Under the pieces are notes generated by a model. The model had not been told where the DNA came from and ran no database searches. It saw only the letters and a program-made list of their open reading frames with translations. Both the position numbers and the translations under genes were made by a program. Below, piece by piece: positions 24,503 through 54,011 of a stretch of 64,000 bases of DNA. The DNA comes from Pocillopora verrucosa (Eukaryota > Cnidaria > Anthozoa > Scleractinia > Pocilloporidae): NCBI RefSeq assembly GCF_036669915.1, contig NC_089322.1, forward strand, positions 17,911,719 to 17,975,718, in the 5' to 3' direction. The stretch's first letter is position 1. The number at the start of each line of letters is the position of its first letter.

Positions 24503-24959
24503 AGACAGTATCTGCCACAAAAATAAACATATCTATGGTCAGTTAAGATTTCTGTTTTACACAAAACTACTTTTCCATCTTACGTGACTTTTCCATCATC
24601 CGTGACTACATCGTTAGACAAACGTAAAACTAAGCTTTTATTACTTTTCCATCTGTTAGTGAGTAGGCAATTAATTAAGAAATTAAACACTCTGTATCTC
24701 TTTGTTGGGTACCGATACCTGTTCTGGTCTATGTAGTTTGTAGAAACGAGTCCCACCTTGAAAAAGTTCCTCTATACTTCCATCAGTCCTCTTAGCTTTG
24801 AATTGGGAACATAACCTCGATCAAACAACATTTTGTCTCGGACTCCCATGCAATTTGAAGAAAAATTGAACCTGGTTTTTGTCGAACACATTTAAGAAAG
24901 TAATTTAAGTAGTGGAAATTATAAACTCAGCCCGTCTAAAAAGAAATGTGAAAGATGAA

Positions 24960-27017: not shown

Positions 27018-27032
27018 GGGGGGGGGGGGGGT
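27018..27032 (+). repeat. poly-G tract just upstream of the coding-exon acceptor, copy A
   Basis: A run of about 14 G after gtgga, some 40 bases before the acceptor at 27072. Copy B has the same tract at about 42262-42275. Such a tract replaces the usual pyrimidine tract and may form a quadruplex in the pre-mRNA. Confidence 0.6.
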
Positions 27033-27079
27033 GAGGGGAATTCTGCAGTGCTAATATTCTATTTCCTGGCAGGTCTTTA

Positions 27080-30000
27080 ATGGCTTACGCTGCACAGAGA
27101 TGGTCTCTCATGAGTCGGGTGGGCAAAGTTACTCTCCATTGTAAAAAATGCAACACAGAACTGGCCACGAAGGAAACTGTGATGCTGGCTAAGGTACCCC
27201 CCTCCGGTACCCACTTAGCCGTTCGCGAGGGGATGGAAGAACAGGTAGAAGCAAAACTTCATAAGGTCGAAAATGAAAAGGGCGGGAAAAGTGCACGGTA
27301 CTGCCCTTACGTTTTTCATTGCCGAGGGTGTGGCGAACGCGTTGCAAACATAACAAAAGTGGCAGGGAAACAGCTTATTTGTTTTGGAATAGAATATTTA
27401 GATATTTTTCATTATGGAGGATCATGGCGAAGTAAAAGGATTACAGCAAATAAACTGTCAAAAGTGAGCAAGGAGTTGGAAAAAGAGTGTGGAATTGAAG
27501 TTGTCAACGTTACGACGCATGCGCAAGAGACAGGAAGAATACACCAGTCCCGTGGGGATAGCAAATCCATGGTTTATTGTGATACAAGTGGATTGACTCA
27601 CACATCGCGCGAAATCGATTTCTTAACGCGTCTAGTCCCACGAGATTATCAGCGGGAGTTGTTCCTTTCTGCGATGCGCGGTAATACGCTGGTATATCTT
27701 CCCACAGGCTCAGGAAAGACTCTGATTGCAGCCATGGTGATGAGTTGCATGAAGAAGTTGAATCCAGGCAAAGTTATGGTATTCCTTGTCGACCGAGTAC
27801 CGTTAGCGTACCAACAAAGTGAGAAGATCAAGTCACAGTTGACAGGTTTGACGGTTGAAACGTTGGTCGGTGAAATGGAGTCGCCTCAAAATGGGAGTAT
27901 TCATCAAAGATTAGCTGATAACAAGATTGATGTGTTAATCTTAACACACCAGATTTTTCTAAATTTTTTAGCCACGGAGGACAACCCACCCATTCGCCTG
28001 TCCGATGTTTCTGTCCTGGTTTTGGATGAGGCTCACCACTGCAGCGGGCACCACCCGTACAACGAGATTATGGAGTACTACAAAAAGACACCAAACCGGC
28101 TTAAACCTGTTGTGCTCGGTCTATCAGCCTCGCCGGCCGGAGAGCTTACAGTCAAAAGAACCAGTGAGAAGCTAAAAGAGCTCCTTGAGAACTTGGATTG
28201 TAAAATCGCGATGCCCATTAAGTCGGATGTAGATGTAAATATCCCAGACGTGATTTATGAAAGATCTGACTACATGAACACTGACCAAGTTATCCTCCAG
28301 CTATATATTGAAGAACACATCAAACATCTGATAAAGAACCATCTCAAAGATGTATCAGATCGTCAACGTTTTGAGTTTCCCGTCTTCTCATCGAATTTTA
28401 GAGGTGCGCTGAGAAAGCTCATTGACAGTTACCATGGTAACAAGAAATCCTTCAAAGCGCTCACCGTTGCTGAGCATGCAATGCACTTGCTCAGCGTTGT
28501 TGAGTTTTGCGAAGTTCTTGGTTACCAGTATGCCGTTGAAAGTCTCAAAGAATGTGTACACCGCATTGTTTACGCTAAGTCGCCGAAAGATTGTGCCTTG
28601 AAGAGGCTAATTGGAGGTCAACCTACTTTTCAGGCACTCCAAAATTTGGCAGACCAAGCATGCAGGGCTGACCACGTACGCGCAGTTGTCATGTCGGACA
28701 GGTTCAAAATTCTTGAGAAGCACATAAAGCAGTTTCTTTGCCGAACTTGGGAAGACCCAACTTCTAGAGGTATCATTTTTGTGAGCTTGCGCAAAACGAC
28801 CTTCAAACTTTGCGAGCAGATCAAAGAGATCCCGGATGTGGCCAAAACGTTAAATCCTTCCCCTTTCGTCGGCCATGGACAAGGAAGCTATGACGGGATG
28901 ATATGGAAAGACGAACAAGAAAGGCTGTTGAAAGAGTTTAGAAAAGGAATATGCAAGCTTCTGATTTGCACGAGTGTTTTGGAGGAAGGACTGGACGTCC
29001 CCGAATGCAACCTGGTCGTTCGCTTTGAGGGTACAGCAACACTTCGGGCGCTGGTTCAGACCCGCGGGCGCGCGTCCCGTAGACGTGACAGCAAGTTTGT
29101 CGTCATTTGCAATGAAAAACAAGAAAGAGATGCCAGAGATCTGTGTCTCAAGGAACAGAACATGGAAGAAGCTATCAGATGTTTGATGGATGGACCGAGG
29201 TGCCAATCACAAGCAGATGAATTTGGATGCGAAGTAAGAAAACCAAAGCTCTTCCTCCCCGGCACAGAGGATAATGGTGTGAATACTTCTCTAGTCATGC
29301 GCCACAGCCCTCGTATATCTGTCATGGTGCACAATATGGTTGGTCAAGAATCTCGCGTGATAGATTTTCTGAACGACACCTTTGACGTGATATCTTCAAA
29401 GCCAATCCAGTCCACTTCATCGCTCGTTGATGCACCTAAAAAGAAAACTACATTACAAGATATGGCGTTTGAACTCGAACCAAGCTATATTGAAGAAGCC
29501 AAGGAGTTTCGCTCAAAGGAAGAGTTTGCATGTCACGTGACAGAAGCGTGGTGCACGTGCCTCACCCACCGTGACGAGGAACCACTTCCGGTTTGGCTTC
29601 AGGCCCCGCCATTAGAAAAGCGCCGCAGATCTAACGAGCCATTTCATTGGTTGAAAGCAAATTCCTTGTGCTTGGGTACTTTTGTGAGTCGATGCCATTT
29701 TCAGTGTGAGTGGCCTCTGGAGACCACACTAAAAAATATTAAGATTCATTTTGATCACAGCTTTAAAATGCTGACCTTGCACTCCTCCAGGCAATCTTCC
29801 ATCGTTCCTGGTCAAGGTGCTGTTGGTAGAGGTCCATACAAAATAGAATTTCGCTACGACGAGATTGAAGATTTCATAATCGTGGATTGTGATAGTAATG
29901 CAGGAATCATCAAAATATTTCTGACGGCGAGACACCCTCCACGGCTGTATCGCCAACTGGAGGACGAATCAAATTTTTTCCACCTCGCTCAAATAGATGA

Positions 30001-33000
30001 ACAAGACGATGAAGATGATTCAGTCGTCTCGTCAAGTGAAGATGACTCGGAAACCGAAGGCCTCTCGACCGACGAAGAATATGCGGATGTAATAACCGCC
30101 GATTTTCATGACGCCTCCCCAGATGTCTCACGTAATCTCGCAGATAAAGGAAGCTGGGAAAGGGCGTCAGATTTCCACAATGGTGAAAATGCCGTAAGCC
30201 AGTGCTTTACCTATTGTGTTACAATACCATTTAATGAACTTGTCCAGTTGAGGCACTTGTTGACCACAGTCGAGAAAAGATTCCACAAAAGTGCATTTTA
30301 CTGCCGAGTGAAGGAGAGCCATGGGAAATTACCAGATGTAAACATTCCCGATAGTTTGCCATTTGACGTTCAGTATGCCGCTGGAAGTGTCCTCAGTTTT
30401 CATCCTTTGGTTCGCGGAAGAGTGCCATCTGGTAAATTTGGTAGTCTTTTGCTTGGAAAGTCTTCCGATATAGCTATTGCCGCTTTGGAAAAATTGAGTA
30501 AAGTGTTGGAAAAAGACAAGTTTTGTGACCCAGGCAGCACTCTGGAGTCGTTACTGAAACAAAACAACCCATCGACCTCCGGGATGTTTAACAGGTTGGT
30601 TCCAGGCCATTGCGCTTTGATAAAGCGCGCGGTCATCACCCCAACAAGGCTGCTCTTCTATCCACCGGAAGTCATGGTGAAGAATCGCGTGCTCAGAAAT
30701 TATGATACAAACGACTTCCTCTGTGTCAGTATTCGTGACGAAGACCTGTCAAAAATGTCTGCAGCAAGAGGGAACATCGACGATCTATTAGACGGAATGA
30801 AACTCAAACTAGATGAAGGACTTGAGATAGCTGGTCAGCGGTTTCAGTTCTTGGGTTCCTCGAACAGTCAGCTTCGTAACCATAGCTGTTGGTTTGTAGG
30901 GCCCAGATATCTACCGGACGGCATACGTCGCTGGATGGGAGATTTCACCAAAATCAGGTAAGTGAGTACTATTCCTTTTTTCAATTTCCAACAAGTGAAC
31001 GTTTCCAGTCAAAATTAACAAAAAATTATTCTCCAATAAAGCGATATCATTCCTTCAACCAGTCTAGCCATTGATTAGAGGTGAACAGGAACGCGAAGCA
31101 TTTGAATAGAGTACGAGATTAACAAATGTTGGCTACTTAGGCACTTTGTTACGGGGAAGTGGTCTGAGTCTAGAAGTGATGTTGTCACACATTCACCTGT
31201 GAGATTCACCATTAGTAAATGGTTATATGCACTTTATTTAGGAAAACTGCAAATTACAAGGTATGATGGGAGCAAAGTATTCCGGAACTGTTTTGTTTCA
31301 CATCACTCGGTGATTGGTCAAGGAAACCTGTTCAGCCCTTTCCGTCATGGAGGTGCAAAACTCAAATTGGTCATGACTCAGTTATTTGCATATTACTCCG
31401 TTTTACGCAGTTTGCTTGTTCATTTTTTTTTCTATTTCCCTTTGGCTCATGTGATATTTTCCACTGTTCTAATTGGCCATATGAACATTAAAATGTTTTT
31501 ATATTGCTTTCCAATAGGTGTGTTGCCTCATACATGGCTCGTATGGGCCAGTGCTTTTCCACCTCCTTAGACGCTGTGGGGTTTGCGACCAGTGAGGATA
31601 CCTATCATGACGTAGAAGATGACGTTGAGACACCTGACCGAAAATACTGCTTCTCTGACGGAGTCGGAAAGATATCCGAAGAGTTGGCTGCAGAGGTATG
31701 GTGAATATTTATTTTACTTCGGAAAAGGGGGAGGTATTCTCCTCTAAATTCTAGCCCGCTGAAACATAAAGTAGTACAGTGGTGTAAGCCACTTCACGTG
31801 AGGCGCATGGAAATTGCCATTTGCGACCTTCCCCCCCCCCGTTTCAATAATCCTTTTTACGTTCTTATTTTAGGACATTTACGTGTATTTAATTTCAGTT
31901 CTTATTTCCTTCTTGTACTGATTTTAGGATTATGAAAGTCAGTCCTTCGAAAAGCGCTGCAATACACTTTACGTGTTTTAGAAATTTAAAGAGCTTCTGA
32001 TATGTTGCGAAATCTTCATTTGACAATTGAAGCTTTCAGCTTGTAGACCTAAAGAAACGCATTCTCTTTCAGGTCGTCCGAAAAATTGGTAAACCATTCA
32101 AACCATCCGCATTTCAAGTCCGTTGCGCCGGCTACAAAGGTGTCCTTACGCTAGATCCCAGACTTCCAGGGAAACAGGCCATTTTTCGTAAGAGCATGTG
32201 CAAGTTTGATAGCTTTCACCGCAGACTGGAAGTATTGCAAACGTCTCGTCCTCAGGTCGTTTTCCTCAATCATCAGGTCATCATGCTTCTATCCAACCTA
32301 GGAGTCCCGGATGAAGTCTTTATCAAATTGCAAAACGACATGTTGGACAAACTGTCAGGTAAGAAGATGACGTCAAGAGATTCGCGTCAGAAAACGTCCG
32401 ACTTAGAGAGGATGATCACTTAATTACATGGAAAAAAGTGAAAAGTTGCGTTTTGAATCTGAGAATGTTTAAGCTGATAAAATATGGAGAGATGCGGCGT
32501 TTGCACCTTTTTAACGTTTTGTTTTGTTTCTGTGCTGGCTTAAACAACCTCATAACCATGCGTTTAAATACATGCTGCTGAGCAGTACATGTGATAGTTA
32601 TGCTAAATAGATGTGCGTTAACTTTGTCATTTAGATGAAAGCTTTTTAAACTCTTCATTTTTATTCCGTGACAATTGTCTATATTATCACAAAACCGTCC
32701 TACTAGACCACTGTTGCTGACTAAGTTAGAATTGGCAAAGAATAGAGTCAGTGTCCAGGCCTCATCTTCCTTCCTTTAATTCCGTCTGGTATAATAATCC
32801 CTCATATTACGCCTGTTTTTTGTTCAAAGGGATGCTTGTGAATGAACGTGATGCTATTCAGCTATTGGGAAGTGGAGCCAAAATGGGCGTGTCCTATCAC
32901 AATATTTCTAATGCAGGGATACCACTGACAACGGAGCCATTCTTTAAATCGCTGCTGGTCGCCATGTACCGAAATCATATGCACGAACTGCTTGCCCGAG

Positions 33001-36000
33001 CCCGCATTCTTTTGCCACCAGCGGAAGCGCGCTTGATGATGGGTGTGATGGATGAGCTTGGTGTCTTGAAACCTGGTCAAGTGAGTTTTTTAAAATTTTA
33101 TTTTATTTTCAAGTTTTACTTTCTTTATTGCTCACCGTGAATCTGAGCCTGGTACGGAAGAGTCTGCCTTAATATAACTTCACAATAACGGCTAATTTTT
33201 ACAAATGGCCCTTGAAAACTGATTTTTTGAAATGAATACAAATTTAACCCCTTCGCAGCAGATTTACACAATAAAAACATCACATTTTGCGATCGAACTC
33301 CTCGCGAATATTTCGACAAATTTCTGAACAGCTAGAACAATTCAGGGTTACACTGCCTGGAAGGTCTATATTATGCTGATGGTCAATTTTACCTAACCCT
33401 CCCCTAACCCAACACTACCTAACTTGTTTACACTTGAATGTTGTTGAACTCCCATAACATGTCACATCACATGACCGGACAAACTCTCCCCCCTCCCCCT
33501 CCCCCTCCCCCTCCCCCTGGTGCCCTGGCCATGCAGGCCACAATGGGCCTCAAATCCTACTCGCAACCATCATTAGACCAGTTTTGGAAAGATAATGATG
33601 ATTTTGAGGAAGGTAAACAGTAAATTTGCTTTTGGAATCTTTTGAAGAACATGTTTAATCTGTTTTATCGCGGTTATCAGGTTTTCGTACAGTATTCCGC
33701 CGTTGAAACACGCGCTGATCGAGATGACGAGTTTAACAAGAACAAAAAAATTGTGCTAAGGGGACCAGTGGTGGTTACTCGGAATCCATGTTTACATCCG
33801 GGAGATGTACGTCAGCTCGAGGCTGTTGACATACCAGGCCTCTGTCATCTTGTGGACTGTGTCGTTTTCCCACGTCAAGGCTCGCGGCCACACCCTAACG
33901 AGATGGCAGGTAATATGAATCACTTTCTCTTCCAACCTGAAACACTTACACGCGCTTAAGTTTATATATATATATATCTTGATTTATTTAGGTATATCGT
34001 GAAATGATTTAGTTTCCACCGAAGACAGCCTCCCCTACGAAGTAATGTGACTGAAATTTGCTTATTTATTTGCGATATTTAGACAGGCTGGCTCGGTTCA
34101 GCATCAAAGCTGGTTTAAATGGGGGCCTGTATAAACAGTAAGAAGGTCAGACTACAACGCTGGAGCTACGTTCTCTTTTCGAGAAGTGCGTGGGTTCGTT
34201 AATGTCCCTTTCTAATCAGCACTTTGAAGATGCAAGAGATAGGGCCGACGGTTTATGGTTCTTATCTGAGAGGAAAAGAATGTCTAATTATTTGCAGATG
34301 TCATGGGAAAGGCAGTAAATTCTCCTCAGTTGTTTTTTAGACCCTGAGTGTTGGTCCGGTCCGTGGCTTTAACCCACGACCTTACGCACGGCAGTCCAGC
34401 GCTCTACAACATGAGCTAACCAAGCGAAGTTTTTTTTTTTCATAAGAATTCAAGCGAAATCTACGAAATTTAGTCATAAACAGATCAGATTGTGAATATT
34501 TGAACGAACTTCTAAATGCCCATTCTTATTTCAGGCGGTGATTTGGACGGCGATCTATACTTCGTCTGTTGGAATAAAGACCTGTTACCAAGGAAACCAA
34601 ATTACCCGCCAATGGACTATCCGTCACTTCGTAAACTGGAGAAGACTGAGCCAATCACTACTCGCGACATGACAAAGTTTGTGGTGGATTACATCCGGTC
34701 TGACCAGTTAGGCGTTATTGATAATGCGCACAAGGCGGTGGCGGACATTGAAGAAGACGGCGTGCAACATAAGGATTGTCTTTATCTCGCAGAACTGCAC
34801 TCTTTGGCGGTTGATGCACCCAAAACGGGAAAATGGCCGAGTACTAAGGGTATTAGGAGGATAGAAAAGCGTCCTGATTTCATGATGAAGAGCGATAAAC
34901 CAAGTTATCCCTCTGAAAAGGTTATAGGAAAGCTCTTTCGGCGCTGTCGGAAGTTTAAAGATGCTACGTCTGAAAAATACGATCAAAACCTTCGTTTGGA
35001 CAAGTCTCTCTTGTTGCCAGGTAACGACAGTTTCGTTGAAAACGCCAAAGAAGTCTATAATTGGTATCGTGACAAGATGGAGGGCTTGATGCGGCTGTAC
35101 GGCATCGAAACTGAGGCAGAAATCATCACTGGCTGTTTCATGAAGCTTCGGAATCGCTTGCGCAAAGAAAAAACGGAAATTGCCGAACTCGTCGGCGAAC
35201 AACTGTTTGCAATACGCTCGTACCTCCGTCGTGAATTCTTTTATGAATTCGGGAGCGATGGACAGTGGTTAAAAGGCGATGTGCTGATTTCGGATGAGAT
35301 GCGTTTAAAGGCCTCGGCTTGGTACAGAGTGGCCTACACGTTTGCGCATGATCACGGTAATGGTTCAGACCCAAGCAACGAGAAGAGGCTACTCGGTTTT
35401 CCTTGGTTTATCAATGACATCATGCTCGCCATCAAAACGCGAAAAGATCGACCCAGTCAGCCCCAGGCCTTAGACGTTAGCGCAACCGTAGGTCAGAGTC
35501 TTGTAAGGTTGTTTCACGAAGAGAAGGACTGGTTACTTGAGGAGTTCAGAGCTCGAATAAGAACAAAGAACGTTATATGTCGTCATCTGCAGGCCGCTGA
35601 ATCCACTTCTTCAATGAGTATCGTCGGCTCTACTGCTACGCTACTATTTCACAAGACTTCAGATCTTGATCTGTTCTTTTTACCTCAGGATACACAGGCA
35701 CGAAGCCATCAGGCCCTCCCTGAGGTACCACCAGAAGAAAGTAACAATTTAGTTGAGGAAGGAGCGAAAGTATTGAAGTCCTTGATTCCTCTCTTGAAGG
35801 AGGAGACGTCAGAGCAACAAGAAGAAGAAGACGAAAACGTTAAAAATCTCTTCTGGAAAGTTCTTCTCGTCAACAAAAAGTCTTTCCCTGTAAGTATCGC
35901 TTTTAGTTACACCATATCCAAGGGTGTATATCTTTACTACGACTTGTGGTAAATATGATGTGGGCGACTTAACTTATGCTGTAGCGTTAGTAAACGTTGT

Positions 36001-38463
36001 TCATATGTGACTTCGTAAACAACGACACTGTTGAATTAGTGTTACGACAGCTTTACCGACGAAACACAGCACCAACCATCAAGTGTTGGACGATTGTACG
36101 CTAACCACGCTTAAGAAGAGTCTTCATCCGCGAAAAATTGATTAAAAAGGGAAAATGATAACAATTAAGAAAAGATCTATTTTCCACATTCTTTTCCTGT
36201 CTAATTAGGGTCTTTAGCACTCTCTTCAAATATTGACACCGCGCTTTTCTCCGCATTATTTAAATTGGATTTTCTTTTCATCCAGGTCCTCTCATGCAAG
36301 CAGCCAACAGTGAACCTGATAGATGGCAGTAATTGCTCTCCAACCCTCAACTGTGATTTGATTTCATCCCCTGACTGTCTAAGAATGGCCGCTTTGCTAT
36401 CAAGCTACATCAAGTCGTATCCTGATCTCTTATTAGTGCTCCGTGCTATACACCGATGGTGTTGCGTGACAAGGTTGTCACGCAACGCAGCTGGCGCTGG
36501 AAACATTTCAGACTTGCTCTCTGCCCTTCTCTTAGCCCAATGCATACAGATTAAAAACTTTAATGAGGAGCACGTTTTGGCACACCAAATGCACGGTGGT
36601 GCAAGGGATGGTAAGCAGTACATGGAATTGGAAAATGTCATAGGATATCTGGAAGCTTACCAGAACGATTCCCAATTCCCTCAGGTAGAGCCTGACATCA
36701 CCCAAGTTGGCCAGCTTCTGGTGACCTTTTTTCAATCACACGACTCGTGTTTTGAAAGAGAGCTCCCGCAATCGCTCGCACGTCTTTTCGGTGCACGAAA
36801 GCTCTCAAAGCTTCTGGGGAAAGATCATTTAGTCCTTGTGAAAGAACAAATGCAACGCGCCTATCAGCTCCTGGCGTTATTTGGAGACGCACAGATCATG
36901 TTAACCATAAGTGGCTCCGAAGATTACAACGTAATTTTTCTTTCGCCACTTCTTTCCTCGTTCATAGCGGGCGTTGAGAAGAGTAAAGCTCAAGAAATAG
37001 CGCGGAAGACCGGAGCGAGGAGCGTCATCATTCGCCCCAATTTTCCACGGTCGTGTTCCTCAGCTGTACTTGAGGTGAAAGGAAGTGAGCCTGCGATACG
37101 AGCAGTGGAGAGAGAGCTGGAAGAGATGAGCACAATAGCATCACGCGACAGGATCTCTCTCATAAGTGGCTGTTTTGTAGAAGATGCAAGTCTGCTTTTG
37201 TTTGAAGGAAGTCGAAGTCAAAATGATCACGTTTCTCTGTCACCATACGATGGGCGTTGTCATCAGACACACGACCGATTGGTCCGGCATGTCGCCTTGC
37301 TAGAAAATGTCACGTACGATGGAATCTACGCATACCGCCGTTTTACAGAAAAATTCTTTCAACAACTGCGATTACTCGAGAGAGATTTCGATCCTCAGGT
37401 GCATGGTTGTCGTGAATTCGCTGTACACTTTGGACGAATCTACATGTTCAGTGTTCCGCATATCTTGCTCGAAGATAGCGAGTCCATCACTATTGCAATG
37501 CTGAGAACGAATAAACGGAAACCAAGTGCCTTAGACAGAAGGAACAGCCACAGTCAGGAAGAGTCAACTCCAGAAAGAGTCACTTTCGTTGACCAAGAAC
37601 AAGAACGCGCTCGGAGAAGGAAGAGGCGGGCAAAACGTAATGTGACATTTAGCGAAACCAAGAAGAAGCGGAAACGCGGAAATCCTTCGAGGAGCTCCCT
37701 GTTCACGGTTGTTCACTCGCCAGACAGAGTGGAGATTTTTCTTCACGAGACTGAATTCCGGCAAGATGGAAATCCCACTGAAAACTTCTCAGTGGACATT
37801 TTGGATGGAGGGGTAGAATTTTACGTCAGGTTCGACGAGAGACTCAACTTTGTTGAAGTAAAGCTTCCAAACCTACGCTGGTTTATGGTGGACGTCAAAA
37901 GACCTTACCAACGCCGACCAGATCATGGCGTCGCACAATATGGCGAACAGGCAGATGACAACTTCGTTTTAGACGGCTGGGAGACAGACGTTCGTTTCTT
38001 GTTGCAATCCCGTTATGCTTTGGCGCTGAGTGACATCCGGGATACCAAGTACGCTAAGTACCAGTGTATACTCGAACCCAGTACGGGTGAGCAGCCATTT
38101 ACTGTTCAGGAAGAGTTATGGAAAGATGTGCGACTAATTCGCCACTACAAGTCTAAAAAGTTCACATGCGCTTCACGTCAAGGTGGGTTCCTCTCTGGCC
38201 TGACAGCATACCTCAACGAGGTGACAGAATATTCCAGACCATTGGGGCCGGAGAAAGTCGGTGAATTCAGAGAAAAACACACTCGTTGGGAGGTGTCATT
38301 GGAGGCAAAGCTTCCAGAAGATTTAGCAGCCAAGGAAACTGTTAAAACGTTCTTAGAGGAAGTATGGAAGTTCGCATTTGCTTTATCCTCATTCGTATCG
38401 AAGGAAAATGAGGTTAATGTCGGCCAATTAAGAGGCCTCCACCTAGTGAACAATTTTTTATGA
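27080..38463 (+). CDS. helicase-RdRP-nucleotidyltransferase fusion, copy A
   Basis: Seven coding exons: 27080-30957, 31518-31695, 32073-32358, 32830-33080, 33681-33909, 34535-35889 and 36286-38463. The phases close to 2784 residues with no internal stop. Domains in order: (1) zinc domain, residues 17-125, C21-x2-C24 and C81-x2-C84, like the RIG-I C-terminal RNA-end-binding domain; (2) SF2 helicase of the Dicer/RIG-I group, about 185-715: PTGSGKT (K213), DEAH (316-319), SAS (349-351), a helical insert about 430-530, QTRGR (660-664); (3) cellular RdRP, about 840-1850, catalytic DLDGD at 1610-1614, with an acidic insert near 973-1008; (4) nucleotidyltransferase, GS at 1972-1973, DLD at 1984-1986, third Asp probably 2072, then the helical PAP-associated domain; (5) KH-like segment about 2265-2340; (6) basic run 2500-2526; (7) unassigned C-terminal region. 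Inferred role: unwinding, copying and tailing RNA for small-RNA amplification, perhaps in the nucleus. AATAAA is at 38976-38981. No RNase III or PAZ domain is present. Confidence 0.93.
33486..33520 (+). repeat. (CCCCCT)n tract in intron 4 of copy A
   Basis: About five units of ccccct, G-quadruplex-prone on the minus strand, inside an intron-embedded repeat. The open frame through it reads poly-proline but has no splice support. Copy B has a diverged C-rich run at about 48689-48712. Confidence 0.6.
34347..34440 (-). mobile_element. tRNA-derived SINE remnant in intron 5 of copy A
   Basis: On the minus strand this reads like a decayed tRNA: an A-box region (ggttagctcatgttgtagag), then a B-box-like ggtcgtgggtt. 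The anticodon stem no longer pairs and there is no intact acceptor stem, so it is not a functional tRNA. A T-run (34431-34440) flanks it. The matching position in copy B (about 50028-50040) lacks it. Confidence 0.65.
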
Positions 38464-40211
38464 GTAATGTTAGATTCGCTGAAATCTTTTTCACGTCAGA
38501 GAATATCATGATCACTTGATCCCAGCTCCAGTTGCTTAGATAAATGGCCTAGAACAAATCATTTTTTTTAAATTTCGATAGTCAATTGTTACATTTCTCG
38601 AAACTCAGTCGAAACGCGCTCTAAGTACGATTCTATAAGGATATAAGAGATTATAAACTGTGCTCAAATGTATGAAAATTAGTAGGCATGAAAGTGAACT
38701 CGCTCACCATCCCGAAATGAATCTTTTGTCTGGTCTGTGAATCAGTTATTATTATTAACTGAATGTCGCGCACGTTTTCTCAAGAGTGTAATTTTGAGCT
38801 TTTTTACGAGAGAATTCCTTACTAGGGAGATTTTTTTAACATCGTGTTTTTAACGACATTTAAAAGACATTTCATCAGAATCTTTCAGTTCAGTAGCTAA
38901 GGTAAAAGTACTGATTTAGATAAATGTTTCCAAACAGCCCTCTGAGTTTTGCTTAATTTTGCCCAATCCGGCAGAAATAAACACGAGGCTGCTGAAAACA
39001 ACCTATGCGTAAGCTAAAGGCGGCCATTTTCTAACGCTATAAAGTGAAATTCATGCGAGTGAGGACGAAAATAATGTTTTATAACAATTTTTGGCTGCTG
39101 GGTACAGTTTTTATTGTGTCATGCTTGTTTGAGGCATGTAGCCAACTCAATAAAGGAGCTTAACCTCGCGGTACATCTAGTACTCGATGCATTCTGTTTC
39201 TAGGCCGAAGTATTCTCGTAAACGAATTCACCAAGAGCACTGATAACTCACAAAATCTCAGTCCTTCGCAGTCACTCTTTGGGAGGTCACGCGATGCTTT
39301 CCCCGGCCAAGAGATGGTGCAATCTACCATCCGTCCTTTATCTTATGTTATAAAACTAAGATACTACGAGCGCCTGATTGGTCAAAAAAAACCATCGCTT
39401 ATTGCACCGGTAAATCTATAGAAAATTGAAATTTATGTAAGGTCATTTTATCTCATACTTGGGTTGTGGGGAGAACTCTTGAAAAGTTTGTAAGTTACTC
39501 GTCTCTGGCTTGTGATTTCCAAGCTTTTCTCCCAGCATCCTGTCTGGGTTATGCTGGGAATCCAGAAAGTGCGGTTTATCGGAGGAACAGGACGTAAAAA
39601 ATCAAATGAAAAAAAGAAAAAAATCAAATTAATGTTGAGGTTCACATTTTTCTCAGGTTACCTAAGAACTTCGAATAACCTTTCACTAAAGAAAATCTTG
39701 CTCTTCAATTTTCAACTTTTACACTCGTGGTTATTGAATTTTGATGCGCGATCCGGCTGGTAATGCAATTAAGAGTCTGTCCACGAGAGGACCGGGCAGG
39801 CGTGACACATGCTATTTCATCGATTTCTTTCAAACTTTCACAGTTTATGAGGGTCACTAAGTTATTCATTAATCCAAAGTAGTTCGGGCTCCCGGTTAAT
39901 CCTGGCGTTATTAGAGCCCCCGCATCAAATCGCTAGGGTAAAAGGCTAAAATTAGCTCGAAAAATGCACTTCCAACGAATCTCTCTCATACTAACAGAAT
40001 ACGATGGATTTTGATCTTATTAAATCCAATGGGTGTTTTAACCTTAACGAAATAATTCCTTAATTTGGGGAAAATTTAATATAACTTCTGTCAAATTAGA
40101 GCAGTCAATCGTTAACTGTGTCACGTAACTATTTCAAAGAAAGGAAAAAAATTAGGGTTTTTTGATTGAAATTTAATTGCATGCCGATCTCTTTTGCCAC
40201 TTAATGTAGAC
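38464..40211. other. 3' flank of copy A and duplication junction
   Basis: The first 1.2 kb is 3' UTR and flank shared with copy B (AATAAA 38976-38981). From about 39690 to 40211 the sequence has no counterpart that I see in the other unit, so this is the spacer at the duplication junction. No gene is visible. The strand of origin of the spacer is unclear. Confidence 0.6.
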
Positions 40212-42326: not shown

Positions 42327-45300
42327 ATGGCTTACGTAGCACAGGGATGGTCCCTCATGAATCGAGTGGGCAAAGTTACTCTACATTGTAAAAAATGCAA
42401 CGCAGTACTGGCCACGAGGGAAACTGTGATGCTGGCTAAAGTACCCCCCTCCAGTACCCATTTGGCCGTCCGGGAGGGGATGGAAGAACAAGTAGAAGCA
42501 AAACTTAGTAAGTTTGACAATGAAAAGGGCGGGAAAAGCACACGGTACTGCCCTTACATTTTTCGTTGCCGAGAGTGTGACAAACATGTTGCAAACTTAA
42601 CAAAGGTAGCAGGGAAACTGCTAATTTGTTTTAAAATAGAAAATATAGATATTTTTCATAATGGAAAAAAGATAACGGCAAATAAACTGTCAGAAGTGCG
42701 CAAGGAGTTGGAAGAAGAGTGTGGAATTGAAGTTGTCAACGTTACGACGCATGCGCAAGAGACAGGAAGAATACATCAGTCCCGTGGGGATAGCAAATCC
42801 ATGGTTTATTGTGACACAAGTGGGTTGAATCATACATCGCGCAAAATCGATTCCTTAACGCGTCTAGTCCCGCGAGATTATCAGCGGGAGTTGTTCCTTT
42901 CTGCCATGCGCGGTAATACGCTGGTATATCTTCCCACGGGCTCAGGAAAGACCCTGATTGCAGCCATGGTGATGAGTTGCATGAAGAAGTTGAATCCAAG
43001 CAAAGTTGTGGTATTCCTTGTCGACCGAGTACCGTTAGCGTACCAACAAAGTGAGAAGATCAAGTCACAGTTGACAGGTTTGACGGTTGAGACGTTGGTC
43101 GGTGAAATGGAGTCGCCTCAAAATGGGGGTATTCATAAAAGATTAGCTGATAACAAGGTTGATGTGTTAATCTTAACACACCAGATTTTTCTAAATTTTT
43201 TAGCCGCGGAGGACAACCCGCCTGTTCGCCTGTCCGATGTTTCTGTCCTGGTTTTGGATGAGGCTCACCACTGCAGCGGGCACCACCCGTACAACAAGAT
43301 TATGGAGTACTACAAAACAACACCAAACCGGTTTAAACCTGTTGTGCTCGGTTTATCAGCCTCGCCGGCCGGAGAGCTTGAAGTCGAAAAAACCAGTGAG
43401 AAGCTAAAAAAGCTCCTTGAGAACTTGGATTGTAAAATCGCGATGCCCATTGAGTCGGATTTGTTGTTACATGTGAATATCCCAAACGTGATTTATGAAA
43501 CATCTGACTGCAAGAACACTGAACAAGTTATTCTCCAGCTATGTACTGAAGATCACATCGAACATCTGATAAAGAGCCACCTCAAAGATGTACCAGATCG
43601 TCAACGTTTTGAGTTTCCCGTCTTCTCATCGAATTTTAGAGGTGCGCTGAGAAAGCTTATTGATAGTTACCATAGTAACAAGAAATGCTTTAAAGCGCTG
43701 ACCGTTGCTGAGCATGCAATGCACTTGCTCAGTGTTGTTGAGTTTTGCGAAGTTCTCGGTAACCAGTATGCCGTTGAAAGTCTCAAAGAATGTGTACACC
43801 GCATTGTTTACGCTAAGTCACCGAAAGATTGTGCTTTGAAGAAGCTAATTGGAAGTCAACCTACTTTTCAAGCACTCGTTTATTTGGCTGACCAAGCAGG
43901 CAGGGATGACCACGCACGTGCAGTTGTCATGTCGGACAGGTACAAAATTCTTGAGAAGCACATAAAGCAGTTCCTATGCCAAGCTCAGGAAGACCCAACT
44001 TCTAGAGGCATCGTCTTTGTGAGCTTGCGCAAAACGACCTTCAAACTTTGCGAGCAGATCAGAAAGATCGCGGATGTCGCCAAAACATTAAATCCTTACC
44101 CTTTTGTCGGCCACGGACAAGGAAGCTATGATGGAATGAGGTGGAAAGACGAGCAAGAAAAGCTGTTGAAAGAGTTTAAGAAAGGAATATGCAAGCTTCT
44201 GATTTGCACGAGTGTTTTGGAGGAAGGACTGGACGTCCCCGAATGCAACCTGGTCGTTCGCTTTGAGGGTGCAGCAACACTTCGGGCGATGGTTCAGACC
44301 CGCGGGCGCGCGTCCCGTAGGCGTGACAGCAAGTTTGTCGTCATTTGCAATGAAAAACAAGAAAGAGATGCCAGAGATCTGTGTCTCAAGGAACAGAACA
44401 TGGAAGAAGCTATCAGATGTTTGATGGATGGACCGAGGTGCCAATCACAAGCAGATGAATTTGGATGCGAAGTAACAAAACCAAAGCTCTTCCTCCCCAG
44501 CACAAAGGATAATGGTGTGAATACTTCTCTAGTCATACGCCACAGCCCTCGTATATCTGTCATGGTGCACAATATGGTTGGTCAAGAATCTCGCGTGATA
44601 GATTTTCTGAACGACACCTTTGACGTGATATCTTCAAAGCCAATCCAGTCCACTTCATCGCTCGTTGATGCACCTAAAAAGAAAACTACATTACAAGATA
44701 TAGCGTTTGAACTCGAACCAAGCTATAATAAAGAAGCCAAGGAGTTTCGCTCAAAGGAAGAGTTTACATGTCACGTGACAGAAGCGTGGTGCACGTGCCT
44801 CACTGACCGTGACGAGGAACCACTTCCAGTTTGGCTTCAGGCCCCGCCATTAGAAAAACGCCGCAGATCTAACGAGCCATTTCATTGGTTGAAAGGAAAT
44901 TCCTTGTGCTTGGGTACTTTTGTGAGTCGATGCCATTTTCAGTGTGAGTGGCCTCTGGAGACCTCACTAAAGAATATTAAGATTCATTTTGATCACAGCT
45001 TTAAAATGCTCACCTTGCATTCCTCCAGGCAATCTTCCATCGTTCCTGGTCAAGGTGCTGTTGCTGGAGGTCCATACAAAATAGAATTTCGCTACGACGA
45101 GATTGAAGATTTCATAATCGTGGATTCTGATAGTAATGCAGGAATCATCAAAATTTTTCTGACGGCGAGACACCCTCCACGGCTGTATCGCCAACTGGAG
45201 GACGAACAAAATTTTTTCCACCTCGCTCAAATAGATGAACAAGACGATGAAGATGATTCAGTCGTCTCGTCAAATGAAGATGACTCGGAAACCGAAGGCC

Positions 45301-48300
45301 TCTCGACCGACGAAGAATATGCGGATGTAATAACTGCCGATTTTCATGACGTCTCCCCAGATGTCTCACGTAATCTCGCAGATAAAAGAATCTGGGAAAG
45401 GGTGTCAGATTTCCACAATGGTGAAAATGCCGTAAGCCAGTGCTTTACCTATTGTGTTACAATACCATTTAATGAACTTGTCCAGTTGAGACGCTTGTTG
45501 ACCACAGTCGAGAAAAGATTCCACAAAAGTGCATTTTACTGCCGAGTGAAGGAGAGCTATGGGAAATTACCAGAGGTAAACATTCCCAATAGATTGCCAT
45601 TTGACGTTAAGTATGCCGCTGGAAGTGCCCTCAGTTTTCATCCTTTGGTTCGCGGAAGAGTGCCATCTGGTAAATTTGGTAGACTTTTGCTTGGAAAGTC
45701 TCCCGATATAGCTATTGCCGCTTTGGAAAAATTGAGTAAAGTGTTGGAAAAAGACAAGTTTTGTGACCCAGGCAGCACTCTGGAGTCGTTACTGAAACAA
45801 AACAACCCATCGACCTCCGGAATGTTTAACAGGTTGGTTCCAGGCCATTGCGCTTTGATAAAGCGCGCGGTCATCACCCCAACGAGGCTGCTCTTCTATC
45901 CACCGGAAGTCATGGTGAAGAATCGCGTGCTCAGAAATTATGATACAAACGACTTCCTTTGTGTCAGTATTCGTGACGAAGACCTGTCAAAAATGTCTGC
46001 AGTCAGAGGGAACATCGACGATCTATTAGATGGAATGAAACTCAAACTAGATGAAGGAATTGAGATAGCTGGTCAGCGGTTTCAGTTCTTGGGTTCCTCG
46101 AACAGTCAGCTTCGTAACCATAGTTGTTGGTTTGTAGGGCTCAGTTCTCTACCGGACGACATTCGTCGCTGGATGGGAAAATTCACCAATATTAAGTGAG
46201 TGAGCACTATTCCTTTATTCAATTTCAATTTCTGTTTTGTTTCACATCACTCGGTGATTGGTCAAGTAAAACTGTTCAACCCTTTCCGCCATTGAGGTGC
46301 AAAACTCAAATTGGTCGTGACTCTGCTATTCGCATCTTTCCCCGTTTCACGCAGTTTACTCGTTCATTTATTTTCTATTCCCTTTAGCCTCATGTGATAT
46401 TTTCCTCTGTTCTAATTGGCCTTATGAACATTAACATTTTTTATATTGGCTTTCCAATAGGTGTGTTGCCTCATACATGGCTCGTATGGGCCAGTGCTTT
46501 TCCACCTCCTTAGACGCTGTGGGGTTTGCGACCAGTGAGGATACCTATTATGACGAAGAAGATGACGTTGAAACAGCTGACCGAGAATACTGCTTCTCTG
46601 ACGGAGTCGGAAAGATATCCGAAGAGCTGGCCGCAGAGGTATAGCAAATATTTGTTTAACTTGGGAAAAAGGGAAGATTTTCTCCCCTGAATACCTGAAT
46701 ACGAGCCCGCTGAAACACAAAGTAGTACTGTGGTGTAAGCCTCTTCACGTGAGGTGCATTGGAATTACCATTTGCGACTTCTCCCTCTTTGAATAATCGT
46801 TTTTACGTTCTCATTTTAGGCGTCTACGTGTATTTAATTTCAGTTCTTATCTCCTCCTTGTACTAATTTTAGGTTTATGACAGTCAGTCCTTCGAAAAGC
46901 GCTGTAATACACTGTACGTGTTTTAGAAATTTAAAGAGTTGCTAATATGTTACGAAATCTTTATTTGGCAAAAGGAGCTTTCAACCTCTATGCCTAAAGA
47001 AACACATTCTATTTCAGGTTGTCCGAAAAATTGGTAAAGCATTCAAACCATCCGCATTTCAAGTTCGTTTCGCCGGCTACAAAGGTGTCCTTACGCTAGA
47101 TCCCAGACTTCCAGGGAAACAGGCCATCTTTCGTAGAAGCATGTTCAAGTTTGATAGCTTTCACCGCAGACTGGAAGTATTGCAAACGTCTCGTCCTCAG
47201 GTCGTTTTCCTCAATCATCAGGTCATCATGCTTCTATCTAACCTAGGAGTCCCGGATGAAGTCTTTATCAAATTGCAAAACGACATGCTGGACAAACTGT
47301 CAGGTGAGAGGATGAAGTCAAGAAATTCGAATCACAAAACTTCCGACCTAGATAGGATGATCACTTCATCTTGTTTCGACTCATTACATGGAAACATGGT
47401 AAAAGGTTGCCTTTAGAGTTTGAGAACGTTGTAGCTGATAAAATATGGAGACGTGCGACGTTTACACCTTTTTTAACGTTTTGTTTTGTCTCTGTACTGG
47501 CTTAAACCACCTCATAACCATGCATTTAAATACATGCTACTGGGCAGTACATGTGATAGTTATGCTGTATAGATGTTCGCTAATTTTGGTGGAAGCTTTT
47601 TAAACTCTGCATTTTCATTCCGTGAAAATTGTCTATATCATAACAAAACCGTTCCAGTCAACCGCTGTTGCCGACTAAGTTAGAATTGGCAAACAATAGA
47701 GTTAGCGTCCAGGTATTATAATATCTCATATTACTCCTGTCTTTTGTTCAAAGGGATGCTTGTGAATGAACGTGATGCTATTCAGCTATTGGGAAGTGGA
47801 GCCAAAATGGGCGTGTCCTATCACAATATTTCTAATGCAGGGATACCACTGACAACGGAACCATTCTTTAAATCGCTGCTGGTCGCCATGTACCGAAATC
47901 ATATGCACGAACTACTCGCTCGAGCCCGCATTCGTTTGCCACCAGCGGAAGCACGCTTGATGATGGGTGTAATGGACGAGTTAAGTGTATTGAAACCTGG
48001 TCAAGTGAGTCTTTTTGATTATTTTTTTTAAAGTTTTACTTTTCTCTATTTCTAACTCTGAGCCTGGTATGGAGGATTCTGCCCCAATATAATCCAACGA
48101 TAACAGCTGTTTTTTAATGGCTCAAATTTAACCCCTTTGCGGCAGATTTACACAATGAAAAAATCATATTTTACGATCGAACTTCTCGCGAATATTTCGA
48201 CCAATTTCTGAACAGCTAAAATACTTCGGGGCTACACTGTCTGGAAGGTCAATATTATGCTGATGTGAATATGAAAGCGATCTTCGCAACTATGAACACT

Positions 48301-51300
48301 ACTTAAGCAGTAGTGAAAAGAAGGCCTGAAAAAAGTTCAGGCCTGTACGGGATTTGAACCCATGACCTCTGCGATACCGGTGCAGTGCTCTACTTCACCT
48401 CTACTCTTTTCACTACTGCTTAAGAAGTGTTCATAACTGCGAGGATCGCTTTCATATTCACGTCTTTATCCGCAGTTCAAATATATGACTTTCATGTATT
48501 CACAACCGTCTATTATGCTGATGGTCAATGTCAGTACCTGAGCAGCTGTTTACACACTCCTCCCCAAACCCAACACTACCTAACTTGTTTACACTTGAAT
48601 ATTGTTGGACTCCCATAACATTTCACCATTACAGAATTACTTAATGTCCTGCCAAAGAGCATCAGATGGCCGGACACACTCTCCGTTCTCCCCACCCCCC
48701 CCCCCCTCCCCCGTGCGCTAGCAAAGCAGGCCACAATAGGCCTCATATCCCGCTCGCAACCACTATCAGACCACTTTTGGAAAAATAATGTAGATTTTGA
48801 GAAAGATAAAGAGGAAGTTTGCCTTTGGAGTCCTTTGAATAACCTGTTCATTCTGTTTTATCGCGTTCGTCAGGTTTTCGTGCAGTACTCTGCGGTTGAA
48901 ACACGTGAGGATCGAGATGACGAGTTTAACAAGAGGGAAAAAATTGTGCTCAGGGGACCAGTGGTGGTTACTCGGAATCCATGTTTACATCCGGGAGATG
49001 TACGCCAGCTCGAGGCTGTTGACGTACCAGGCCTCTGTCATCTTGTGGACTGTGTCGTTTTCCCACGTCAAGGCTCGAGGCCACACCCTAACGAGATGGC
49101 AGGTAACATGCCTGTTGCGACACTTTGAATCGCTTTCTCTTCCAACCTGAAACACTTACACGCACTTAAAATTTTATAGCTTGATTTATTAGGTATCTCG
49201 TGAAAGGACCTAGTTTCCACAGAAGACAGCCTCCCCAACGGAGTAATGTGACCGAAATTTGTTTATTTATTTGCGATATTTAAACGGGCTGGCTCAGTGC
49301 AGCATCAAAGCTGGTTTAAATTGGGGCCTGTATAAACAGTAACAAAGTCAGATCACGTCACCGGGAGCTACGTTTTTTTTGCGAGAAATGCGTGGGTTCT
49401 TTAATATCGCATTCTAACCAGTACTGTGGAGATGCAGGAGACAGGGCCGACGGTTTAAGGTCCTTATCTGAGTAGACTAGTGTTACGGTATTCTCTAACC
49501 GACAGGAAAATAATACAATCCTACAAACTCAACTACTTTATCAAACAACGAGTGATATTCTTAATAAGGAGCGACTCGTAAAGAAAGTACAGTAAAACTT
49601 ACTTGAGCCCACTACAGTCTATATCTTAGCTCACCACCGAGTCAAACTCACAGTTTCCTCCAATGTTTCTTGAAATTAGCAATCTTCCACTGTAGCTCTC
49701 TCTCACGATGTAGCTTTCTAAACAATCGGTCACTCCCTACAACAACAATAACTACTACTTCATAACTGAGTCCTTACGTACAATTACAAAGTGTTCTGGA
49801 ACATTCCAGAAACTTACAAAAGAACTATTTTAGTAGTATTAAGTAAAAGCTGCGTGACTTGATGAAATGTTCTAGAAAGTTCTATGGTACGCATGTCAGC
49901 ATGACTAAGCCGTCTGGGGATTTCTAGAAGCTTATGTTTACAACAACAATTACTCACAACACTAGAGTGTCTAACCATTTACAGATGTCATAGCAAAGGT
50001 AGCACTTTCTCCTCAGTTGTTTTTAAGACTCTAAGAATCCAAGCGAAATCTACGAAATTTAGTCATAACAAGATCAGATTGTGAATATTGAAATCAGTTT
50101 CTGGAAAAATTATTTCTGATTTCAGGCGGCGATTTGGACGGCGATCTATATTTCGTATGTTGGCATAAAGACCTGTTACCAAGGAAAGCAAATTATCCGC
50201 CAATGGACTATCCGTCACTTCCTAAACTGGAGCAGACTGAGCCAATTACTACTCGCGACATGACCAAGTTTGTGGTGGATTACATCCGGTCCGATCAGTT
50301 AGGCGTTATTGACAATGCGCACAAGGCGTTGGCGGACTTTGAGGAAGACGGTGTGCAATCTCGGGGATGTCTTTATCTTGCAGAACTGCACTCTCTAGCT
50401 GTTGACGCACCCAAAACGGGGAAGTGGCCGAGTACTCAGGGTATTGAGGTTAAAAGGCTTCCTGATTTCATGATGAAGAACGATAAACGAAGTTATCCCT
50501 CTGAAAAGGTTATAGGAAAGCTCTTCCGGCGCTGTCGGAAGTTTAAAGATGCTACGTCTGAGAAATACGATCAAAAACTTCGTTTGGACAAGTCGTTCCT
50601 GTTGCCAGGTAACGACAGTTTCGTTGAAAACGCCAAAGAAGTCTATTATTGGTATCGTGACAAGATGGAAAGCTTGATGCGGCTGTACGGCATCGAAACC
50701 GAGGCAGAAATCATCACTGGCTGTTTCATGAAGCTTCGAAATCGCTTGCGCAAAGAAAAAACGGAAATTGCCGAGCTCGTCGGCGAAGAACTGATCGCAA
50801 TACGCTTGTACCTCCGTCGGGAATTCTTTCGTGAATTCGGCAGCGATGGACAGTGGTTAAAAGGTGAAGTGCTGATTTCTGATGAGATGCGTTTAAAGGC
50901 CTCGGCTTGGTACAGAGTGGCCTACACGCTTGCGGATGATCATGCAAATGATTCAGACCCAAGCCACGAGAAGAGGCTACTCGGTTTTCCTTGGTTTATC
51001 AATGACGTCATGCTTGCCATCAAAACACGAAAAGATCGACCCAGTCAGCCTCAGGCCTTAGACGTTAGCGCAACCGTGGGTCAGAGCCTCGTAAGGTTGT
51101 TTAACGAAGAGAAAGACTGGTTACTTGAGGAGTTCAAAGCTCGAATAAGTATAAAGGACGTTATATGTGGCCATCTGCAGGCCGCTGAATCCACTTCCTC
51201 AATGAGTATCGTCGGCTCTACTGCCACGCTACTATTTAACAAGACTTCAGATCTTGATCTGTCCTTTTTACCTCAGGATACACAGGCACGAAGCCATCGT

Positions 51301-54011
51301 GCCCTCCCTGAGGTACCACCAGAAGAAAGTAACACTTCAGTTGAGGAACAAGCGAAAGTATTGGAGTCCCTGATTCCCATCTTGAAAGAGGAGACGTCAA
51401 AGCAACAAGAAAAAAAAGACGAAAACGTTAAAAATCTCTTCTGGAAAGTTCGTCTCGTCAACGAAAAGTATTTCCCGGTAAGCATCACAGTGGTTTTAGT
51501 TATATCATATCTAGGGGTGTTTATCTTTACCATGAATTGTGGTAAATATGATGTAGGCGACTTAACTTATGCTGTAGCTTTAGCATATGTTCTTCACATA
51601 TGACTTGGTAAACAATGACACTGTTGAATCAAGGTTATGATAGCTTTACCGACGAAACACAGCTCCAACCGTCAAGTGTTGGACGATTGTACGCTAACCA
51701 TGCTTTGAGAAGAGTTTTCATCCACGAAAAATTAATTAAAAAGGGAAAATGATAACATTTAAAAAAATATATATTTTCCACATTCTTCTCCAGTCTTCAG
51801 TTTTCAATCTTCAAATCCTGATACTGCACTTTCCTCAACATTATTTAATTTAAATTTTTGTTTTTCATCCAGGTCCTCTCATGCAAGCGGCCAACAGTGA
51901 ACCTGATAGATAGCAGTAATTGTTCTCCAACCCTTAGCTGTGATTTTAGTTCATCCCCAGACTGTCTAACAATGGCTGCTCTGCTCTCAAGCTATATCAA
52001 GTCGTATCCCCATCTCTTATTGGTACTCCGTGCTATACACCGATGGTGCTGCGTGACAAGGTTGTCACGTAACGCAGCTGGCGCTGGAAACACTTCAAAC
52101 TTGCTCTCTGCCGTTCTCTTAGCTCAATGCATACAAAACATGCATTTTAATGAGGAGCACGTTCTGGAAACGATAGCACACCAAATGCACGGTGGCACAA
52201 GAGATGATAAGCAGTCCATGGAGTTGGAAAATGTCATAAAATATCTGGAAGCTTACCAGAACGATTCCCAATTCCCTCAGGTAGAGCCCGACTTCACCCA
52301 AATTGGCCAGCTTCTGATGACTTTTTTTCAAGCACACGACTCGTGTTTTGAAAAAGAGCTCCCGCAATCACTCGCACGTCTTTTCCGTGCGCGAAAGCTC
52401 TCAGAGCGTCTGGATAAAGATCATTTAGTCCTTGTGAAAGAACAGATGCAACGTGCCTATCAGCTCCTAGCGTTATTTGGAGACGCACAGATCATGTTAA
52501 CCATAAGTGGCTCCGAAGATTACAACGTAATTTTTCTTTCGCCGCTTCTTTCCTCGTTCATAGCGGGCGTTGAGAAAAGTAAAGCTCAAGAAATAGCGCG
52601 GAAGACCGGAGCGAAGAGCGTCATCATTCGCCCAAATTTTCCACGGTCGCGTTCCTCAGCGGTTCTTGAGGTGAAAGGAAGTGAGCCTGCGATACGAGCA
52701 GTGGAGAGGGAGCTGGAAGAGATGAGTACACTGGCATCACGTGACAGAATCTCTCTTATGAGTGACTGTTTTGTAGAGGACGCAAGTCTGCTTTTGTTTG
52801 AAGGAAGTCGAAGTCAAAATGATCACGTTTCTCTGACACCATACGATGGGCGTTGTCATCAGACACACGACCAATTGGCCCAGCATCTCGCTTTGCTAGA
52901 AAACGTCACGAACGATGGAATCTACCCTTACCGCTGTTTTACAGAAAAATTCTTTCAACAACTGCGATTACTTGAGAGAGATTTCGATCCTCAGGTGCAT
53001 GGTTGTCGTGAATTCGCTGTTCACTTTGGACGAATCTACATGTTCAGTGTTCCGCATATCTTGCTCGAAGATAGCGAGTCCATCACTATTGCAATGCTAA
53101 GAACGAATAAACGGAAATCAAGTGTCTTAGTCAGAAGGAACAGCAACAGTCAGGAAGAGTCAGCCCCACTAAGTGTCACTTACGTTGACCAAGAAGAAGA
53201 ACGCGCTCGGAGAAGGAACAGGCAGGCAAAACGTAATGTGACATTTAGTGAAACCAAGAAGAAGCGGAAACGCGGAAATCCTTCGAGAAGCTCCTTGTTC
53301 ACGGTTGTTCACTCACCAGACAGAGTGGAGAATTTTCTTCATTATTCCGGATTCCGGCAAGATGGAAATCCCACTGCAAACTACTCAGTGGACATTTTTG
53401 ATGGATCGGTAGAATTTTACGTCAGGTTCGATGAGGTACTCAACTTTGTTGATGTAAAGCTTCCAAACCTACGCTGGTTTATGGTGGACGTCAAAAGACC
53501 ATATCAACACCGACCAGATCACGACGTCGCACAAGATGGCGAACAGGAAGATGACAACTTCGTTTTAGACGGCTGGGAGACAGACGTTCGTTTCTTGTTG
53601 CAATCCCGTTATGCTTTGGCGCCGAGTGACATCCAGGATACCAAGTACGCTAAGTACCAGTGTATACTCGAACCCAGTACAGGTGAGCAGCCATTTAGTG
53701 TTCAGGAAGAGTTGTGGAAAGATGTGCGACTTGTTCGCCACTACAAGAAGTCTAAAAAGTTCACATGCGCTTCACGTCAAGGTGGGTTCCTCTCTGGCCT
53801 GACAGCATACCTCAACGAGGTGACAGAATATTCCAGACCATTAGGGCCGGAGAAAGTCGGTGAATTTAGAGAAAAACACACTCGTTGGGAAATGTCATTG
53901 GAGGCAAAGCTTCCAGAAGATTTAGCAGCCAAGGAAACTGTTAAAACGTTCTTAGAGGAAGTATGGAAGTTCGCATTTGCTCTATCCTCATTCGTATCGA
54001 AGGAAAACTGA
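42327..54011 (+). CDS. helicase-RdRP-nucleotidyltransferase fusion, copy B
   Basis: Seven coding exons: 42327-46195, 46461-46638, 47018-47303, 47754-48004, 48874-49102, 50126-51477 and 51873-54011. The phases close to 2767 residues. The start is chosen by match to copy A; an in-frame ATG 108 bases upstream lies in the intron. All catalytic residues of copy A are kept: zinc cysteines C21/C24 and C81/C84, helicase PTGSGKT (K208) and DEAH (311-314), RdRP DLDGD at 1607-1611, nucleotidyltransferase GS (1968-1969), DLD (1980-1982) and the probable third Asp, D2068. The exon 1 donor is gtgagt, two bases shorter than in copy A but in the same phase. The stop comes early, right after FVSKEN, because of a small insertion, so the last 17 residues of copy A are missing. 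Copy B has extra residues (ETI) in the nucleotidyltransferase helical part. AATAAA is at 54569-54574. Both copies look functional. Confidence 0.92.
48265..48522. mobile_element. tRNA-containing inverted-repeat element in intron 4 of copy B
   Basis: An insert of about 258 bp absent from copy A, with a 12-bp target duplication, tattatgctgat (48253-48264 and 48511-48522). Inverted arms of about 56 bp (gtgaatatgaaagcgatc at the left, its near reverse complement gatcgctttcatattcac at the right) enclose a tRNA-like core. On the minus strand the core has gtagagcactgc (A-box part) and ggtcatgggttcaaatccc (B box). Confidence 0.7.
49477..49965. mobile_element. inverted-repeat insertion in intron 5 of copy B
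   Basis: About 490 bp starting CTAGTGTT and ending AACACTAG, placed where copy A reads directly from ttatctgag to aatgtctaa. No transposase frame. It inserted after the duplication or was lost from copy A. Confidence 0.6.

Follow-up and report, generated by a model that had tools for sequence, protein, structure and literature searches.

Can the three enzymes of an RNA-copying complex be carried by one animal protein? The question is raised by a locus of the coral Pocillopora verrucosa, lying within a window of 64,000 nucleotides (positions 17,911,719 to 17,975,718 of the forward strand of NC_089322.1; coordinates given without a contig name are those of the window). An earlier note had read 27080..38463, on the forward strand, as one spliced frame of 2784 residues joining a helicase, an RNA-dependent RNA polymerase (RdRP) and a nucleotidyltransferase, and both the coordinates and the residue count proved exact. 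In this gene, here called copy A, the ATG is at 27080 and the stop at 38463; its seven exons (27080-30957, 31518-31695, 32073-32358, 32830-33080, 33681-33909, 34535-35889 and 36286-38463) join into 2784 residues with a single terminal stop, and all six introns have GT/AG boundaries. The window also contains a tandem paralogue, copy B (42327..54011, forward strand, 2767 residues), likewise with seven exons (42327-46195, 46461-46638, 47018-47303, 47754-48004, 48874-49102, 50126-51477 and 51873-54011), and a further copy, C, lies about 0.27 Mb upstream at C11:17655100-17667575 (loci L009 and L010). The three copies probably encode a single-chain RNA-directed RNA polymerase complex, a one-chain version of the yeast complex RDRC.

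The fusion in copy A is independent of any guessed splice between domains, because introns 1-5 (after residues 1292, 1352, 1447, 1531 and 1607) all fall within the RdRP (residues 1186-1744) and intron 6 (after residue 2059) falls within the transferase, between its palm and its third aspartate; the number of interdomain introns is zero. Exon 1, an open frame of 1292 codons inside a stop-to-stop frame of 1308 codons, holds the helicase, a PH-like region and the start of the RdRP, and exon 6 holds both the polymerase motif DLDGD and the transferase palm. Domain order and motifs agree in all three aligned copies, and all six introns are found at the same alignment column and in the same phase in A, B and C, with one extra in C. 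That two or three adjacent genes have been falsely joined by annotation is scarcely credible: AATAAA/ATTAAA hexamers do occur in introns 1, 4 and 6, and the model is predicted from genomic sequence, but such hexamers are also present in exons 1, 6 and 7, domains share exons, each intron sits inside a domain, and the same order and intron phases recur in copy C, which is identical to A at 1265 of 2664 residues (47.5%). The gene model that places the predicted helicase, RdRP and nucleotidyltransferase in one polypeptide is real and well supported.

The eukaryotic RdRP domain (30635..34944, forward strand, residues 1186-1744, across exons 1-6) matches Pfam PF05183 at 1.2e-173 and 579.4 bits in full-length A, spanning positions 1-581 of the 582 in the profile (cut-off 23.8), and at 4.8e-172 and 574.1 bits in full-length C; the full-length Pfam scans cover copies A and C, copy B having been scanned by segments and in the genome scan. 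The catalytic DLDGD (34540..34554, forward strand, residues 1610-1614, at the start of exon 6) is identical in A, B and C, and searches of the PDB matched plant RDR2 at 1e-130 and QDE-1 at 2.6e-18. The predicted RdRP of copy A is complete, with its catalytic DxDGD intact.

Upstream of it lies the superfamily 2 (SF2) helicase (27635..29191, forward strand, residues 186-704), in which motifs I, II, III and VI are represented by PTGSGKT (residues 208-214), DEAH (316-319), SASPAG (349-354) and QTRGRASR (660-667). These motifs are found in all three copies, with exchanges between serine and threonine in motifs III and VI of copy C. In full-length A the Pfam matches are DEAD (5.7e-19) and Helicase_C (3.2e-19), and in full-length C Helicase_C (4.8e-15) and DEAD (5.8e-15), both over their cut-offs, whilst the PDB matches include AncD1D2, a Dicer ancestor (1e-48), plant Dicer (4.4e-39), MDA5 (4.8e-36), LGP2 (9.4e-36) and RIG-I (7.6e-34). 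By its motifs and nearest PDB similarity, the predicted helicase is of the Dicer/RIG-I type. CARD is absent among the Pfam matches of full-length A and C. Between helicase and polymerase, an RdRP-associated PH-like domain (29732..30223, forward strand, residues 885-1048) matches PH_fung_RdRP in A at 5.4e-4 and 20.1 bits, under the cut-off of 27, and PH_met_RdRP in full-length C at 2.9e-7 and 30.7 bits, over the same cut-off; when the genome (353 Mb, 52 contigs) was scanned with PH_met_RdRP, the one match was copy C.

The nucleotidyltransferase begins in the exon that carries DLDGD. Its palm (35536..35847, forward strand, residues 1942-2045) contains a GS ... SDLDL motif (35626..35673, forward strand; GS at residues 1972-1973, SDLDL at 1983-1987) that is present in all three copies, and its second half (36286..36900, forward strand, end approximate) comprises the third aspartate, again in all three copies (the codon of D2083 is at 36355), and a helical core. 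The helicase, DLDGD and GS...DLD motifs on which the earlier note relied were all located in copy A, and each recurs in A, B and C. The Pfam profile MTPAP-like_central (cut-off 27 bits) matches the palm segment scanned alone at 28.2 bits in A, 29.3 in B and 44.4 in C, and full-length C at 2.7e-10 and 40.9 bits; in the genome scan, three of its 15 matches are the fusion copies, all over the cut-off (A 28.5, B 30.6 and C 42.0 bits). The palm with GS and DxD, the third aspartate and the helical core are those of Cid1, GLD-2 and MTPAP, from which this transferase differs in being joined to an RdRP and in having no PAP_assoc match in any of the three transferase segments scanned with Pfam. The region is predicted to be a nucleotidyltransferase of the Cid1/GLD-2 type in which GS, DxD and the third aspartate are all intact.

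Beyond the transferase core, a possible KH-like domain (36961..37122, forward strand) is suggested by a weak match to KH_1 in two of the three copies (E 0.056, 13.7 bits, cut-off 21.5), and the PDB sequence search with the stretch running from the core to this part gave zero matches. The C-terminal domain (37396..38460, forward strand, start approximate) has an unassigned fold and is conserved in A, B, C and a paralogue, D; it has no confident Pfam or PDB match, its single PDB sequence match being at E 0.65. No relative of exon 6 was found in viral contigs or in bacterial and archaeal genomes.

Paralogue D (C1:36113000-36132000, loci L011 and L012) emerged from the genome scan with PF05183, in which 16 of the 35 exon matches belong to A, B and C, five to D, 13 to a cluster on C2 and a single one to C10. 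According to exon joins that are our own prediction, D combines a match to the PH-like region with a DLDGD-bearing RdRP, a transferase-like stretch and the C-terminal domain; in the 14.6 kb ahead of the first exon matched, nothing resembled the helicase part at E <= 1. In the transferase-like stretch both aspartates of DxD are missing and the third aspartate aligns. D was beyond the reach of a search with the transferase and C-terminal module of A, all seven genome matches of which (E <= 1) lie in A, B and C. Paralogue D bears on the alternative that the transferase of the fusion copies is mainly structural or RNA-binding and non-catalytic in the cell, the working unit being the known helicase-RdRP pair. 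D keeps the fold without DxD, and identity between A and C is low in this part (32, 25 and 36 identical residues in blocks 1901-2000, 2001-2100 and 2101-2200), but GS, both aspartates of DxD and the third aspartate are kept in all three helicase-bearing copies despite these diverged surroundings, and we consider a non-catalytic role improbable. The C2 cluster (C2:14468322-14543228) is itself composed of divergent RdRP genes; among the loci inspected there, L002 and L003 have DLDGD, and the motif is changed in L004 (DLSGE) and L005 (RVGGD).

Copies A and B are parts of a tandemly duplicated unit of about 15 kb (about 24472-39611 and 40181-55217), and are identical at 2506 of 2761 aligned residues (91%). 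The synonymous substitution rate (dS) between them is 0.13 overall, and the possibility that they are haplotype duplicates was ruled out by this value, by their location on one shared contig and by the distance of about 15 kb between their starts. Nucleotide identity is 92.1-96.5% in exons and 79.1-86.4% in introns; within exons, 15 bases of A are absent from B in exon 1 and three in exon 6, insertions in B being uncounted. The ratio of nonsynonymous to synonymous rates (dN/dS) is 0.34 overall, ranging by region from 0.22 in the RdRP to 0.59 in the linker. Third codon positions are the most changed, the counts at the three positions being 146/117/232 over 2761 codons between A and B and 1127/820/1754 over 2664 codons between A and C, a pair in which synonymous sites are saturated. 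From dN/dS and these codon-position changes, the predicted fusion genes are judged to be under purifying selection. The unevenness of dS between A and B, which falls to 0.042 in the linker and reaches 0.22 at the N terminus, may be due to gene conversion.

The N-terminal zinc domain (27128..27415, forward strand, residues 17-112) has CxxC pairs at residues 21-24 and 81-84, and C21, C24, C81 and C84, the two pairs of putative zinc ligands, are invariant in A, B and C. The segment scanned alone matches the Pfam profile RIG-I_C-RD (PF11648, cut-off 25.6) at 20.6 bits in A, 24.0 in B and 31.3 in C. The full-length scans gave RIG-I_C-RD at 8.9e-5 and 23.1 bits, under the cut-off, in C, and Yippee-Mis18 (0.0046) and RIG-I_C-RD (0.025) in A. 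Against the PDB, the three-copy profile reached E 0.011 with the C-terminal domain of MDA5, a match that is weak because ankyrin chains follow directly behind it at 0.025. The domain resembles the RIG-I C-RD, which is its best assignment, with Yippee as competitor. RIG-I-like receptors and the DRH proteins of Caenorhabditis elegans have the same group of SF2 helicase and a comparable C-RD-like zinc domain. In RIG-I-like receptors the C-RD comes after the helicase; here, unlike in those receptors, the C-RD-like domain precedes it.

How much of this architecture is new? Fusions of helicase and RdRP are known in oomycetes, Dictyostelium, Hydra and Nematostella, and were placed in a clade termed RDR-gamma (Bollmann 2016, PMC4791657); all three Dictyostelium RdRPs, RrpA, RrpB and RrpC, are described with a helicase domain (PMC3661229). 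These proteins have the same order of DEAD and Helicase_C followed by RdRP, and Hydra and Nematostella are, like Pocillopora, cnidarians. The three-enzyme fusion of the earlier note stands as one polypeptide with its motifs intact, and its helicase-RdRP half was already known (PMC4791657, PMC3661229). The main text of PMC4791657 mentions neither a transferase nor a RIG-I-like domain ('nucleotidyl' and 'rig-i' each occur 0 times), and the RdRP described here is, by PDB similarity, far closer to plant RDR2 than to QDE-1. A survey of animal RdRPs (PMC6396948) does not use the words helicase, fusion or nucleotidyltransferase in its main text. The parallel drawn earlier with the fission yeast complex RDRC, Rdp1-Hrr1-Cid12, is a fair one, the same three kinds of enzyme being described there (PMC3380556) as three proteins, as against one chain with extra N- and C-terminal domains here. 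Tetrahymena Rdr1, which co-purifies with Rdn1 or Rdn2, likewise pairs RdRP with nucleotidyltransferase, but as separate and mutually exclusive subunits, and no helicase subunit is named in that account (PMC6562869). No description of an RdRP-transferase fusion, or of the transferase and N-terminal additions, was found in one open-access library, which does not extend to most of the subscription literature, to preprints or to annotations in databases. Since the helicase-RdRP half is already published, what this protein adds is the transferase together with its RIG-I-like domain at the N terminus, and the novelty of both is provisional.

If the fusion copies act as a single-chain complex, the zinc module and helicase would engage RNA ends or duplex and pass a single-stranded template to the RdRP, which would synthesise the complementary strand, and the tethered transferase would put untemplated nucleotides on the 3' end of either the template or the product. 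The separate transferase subunits Cid12, Rdn1/Rdn2 and CDE-1 are thought to add untemplated nucleotides to 3' ends. The resulting double-stranded RNA (dsRNA) could then be handed on to Dicer and Argonaute; the genome encodes domains of both kinds, with 35 exon matches to Piwi and nine matches to RNase III, the latter forming four pairs and a single partial match. Three neighbouring loci with Dicer-like RNase III pairs lie at C7:5256243-5291736, and one more pair at C7:1881703. As a tentative proposal, it is quite possible that a cnidarian lineage carries a complete single-chain RNA sensor, copier and tailer, in which the template is selected by the helicase and an end-sensing RIG-I-like domain and copied by the RdRP, and its 3' end completed or marked by the tethered transferase; paralogue D, in which no helicase was detected and the transferase looks inactive, would then point to the joined RdRP and transferase as the older core, one branch having gained the helicase or the other having lost it.

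Several observations weigh against the proposal of a single-chain polymerase complex. The expression of copy A as one message, its protein and its activities are all predictions from genomic sequence. Profile searches did match helicase, RdRP and transferase alike, so that none of the three catalytic domains was missed, but in full-length A the palm lies just below the cut-off of 27 (2.5e-5, 24.8 bits), and its profile match in copies A and B is modest. PDB support for the identity of the transferase is weak: the profile of A, B and C matched GLD-2 at E 0.0056 for the whole chain, with a weak alignment over the second half of the transferase, an RNA uridylyltransferase at 0.37 and Cid1 at 0.54, and an unrelated designed protein (0.14) ranks between the first two. 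Paralogue D indicates that an RdRP with DLDGD can tolerate next to it a transferase fold from which DxD is absent. The zinc domain of the earlier note is RIG-I C-RD-like with its paired cysteines kept, but the RIG-I C-RD cut-off is passed in copy C only, and for the segment of copy A alone Yippee-Mis18 (23.9 bits, cut-off 26.6) is ahead of RIG-I_C-RD. The A-B flanks are 90.2-91.5% identical (over 330 bases upstream of the ATG, and over 422 and 549 aligned bases downstream of the stop codon), and therefore the contrast between exons and introns of this pair is, taken alone, modest evidence. In Nematostella, which has four RdRPs, secondary small interfering RNAs (siRNAs) were reported as not detected (PMC12768352), a result that would bear on this gene if those RdRPs are its orthologues, and a role outside RNA interference (RNAi) was speculated for the RdRPs of Branchiostoma (PMC6396948).

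Some of these points, along with the N-terminal domain, agree with an antiviral sensor-processor acting outside RNAi amplification, in which the N terminus and helicase would recognise foreign RNA, the RdRP would turn it into dsRNA that is either diced or detected by RIG-I-like receptors, and foreign RNA would be tagged for decay by the transferase. The N terminus is RIG-I C-RD-like, and a genome scan with that profile gave six matches, one in copy C (30.6 bits) and five elsewhere (C1 has two, C4 three), copies A and B not being among them. Three of the four Nematostella RdRPs, RdRP1-3, are reported to rise after poly(I:C) (PMC8476169, PMC12768352), and this without secondary siRNAs being found (PMC12768352). 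Immune induction of the Pocillopora gene would nevertheless be an extrapolation in which orthology to the Nematostella RdRPs is assumed, and we regard this alternative as somewhat unlikely.

Elsewhere in the window, three open frames at 1503-4862 on the reverse strand have PDZ matches (one over cut-off) and a Death domain (7.8e-13), and are perhaps parts of one PDZ-Death signalling protein; 13298-14554, also on the reverse strand, matches CENP-L at 5.3e-40, and 9848-10162 on the forward strand is an exon of a pyridoxal phosphate-dependent enzyme (PALP, 2.7e-14). Two large arrays of GFP-like genes lie at C1:28361248-28791301 and C1:670362-884433, with 74 exon matches in all. The one GFP-family exon tested has its nearest matches among GFP-like proteins, for example amFP486, EosFP and Azami Green, which are anthozoan.

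Should the proposal of a single-chain polymerase complex hold, a gene fusion in an animal would be evidence that yeast RDRC's three activities operate as a single machine, and one recombinant protein would allow point changes to tell apart the choice of a template, its copying and the tailing. The protein may also unite two branches of RNA recognition, RIG-I-like and RNAi, in a single polypeptide, which bears on the roles of animal RdRPs outside nematodes.

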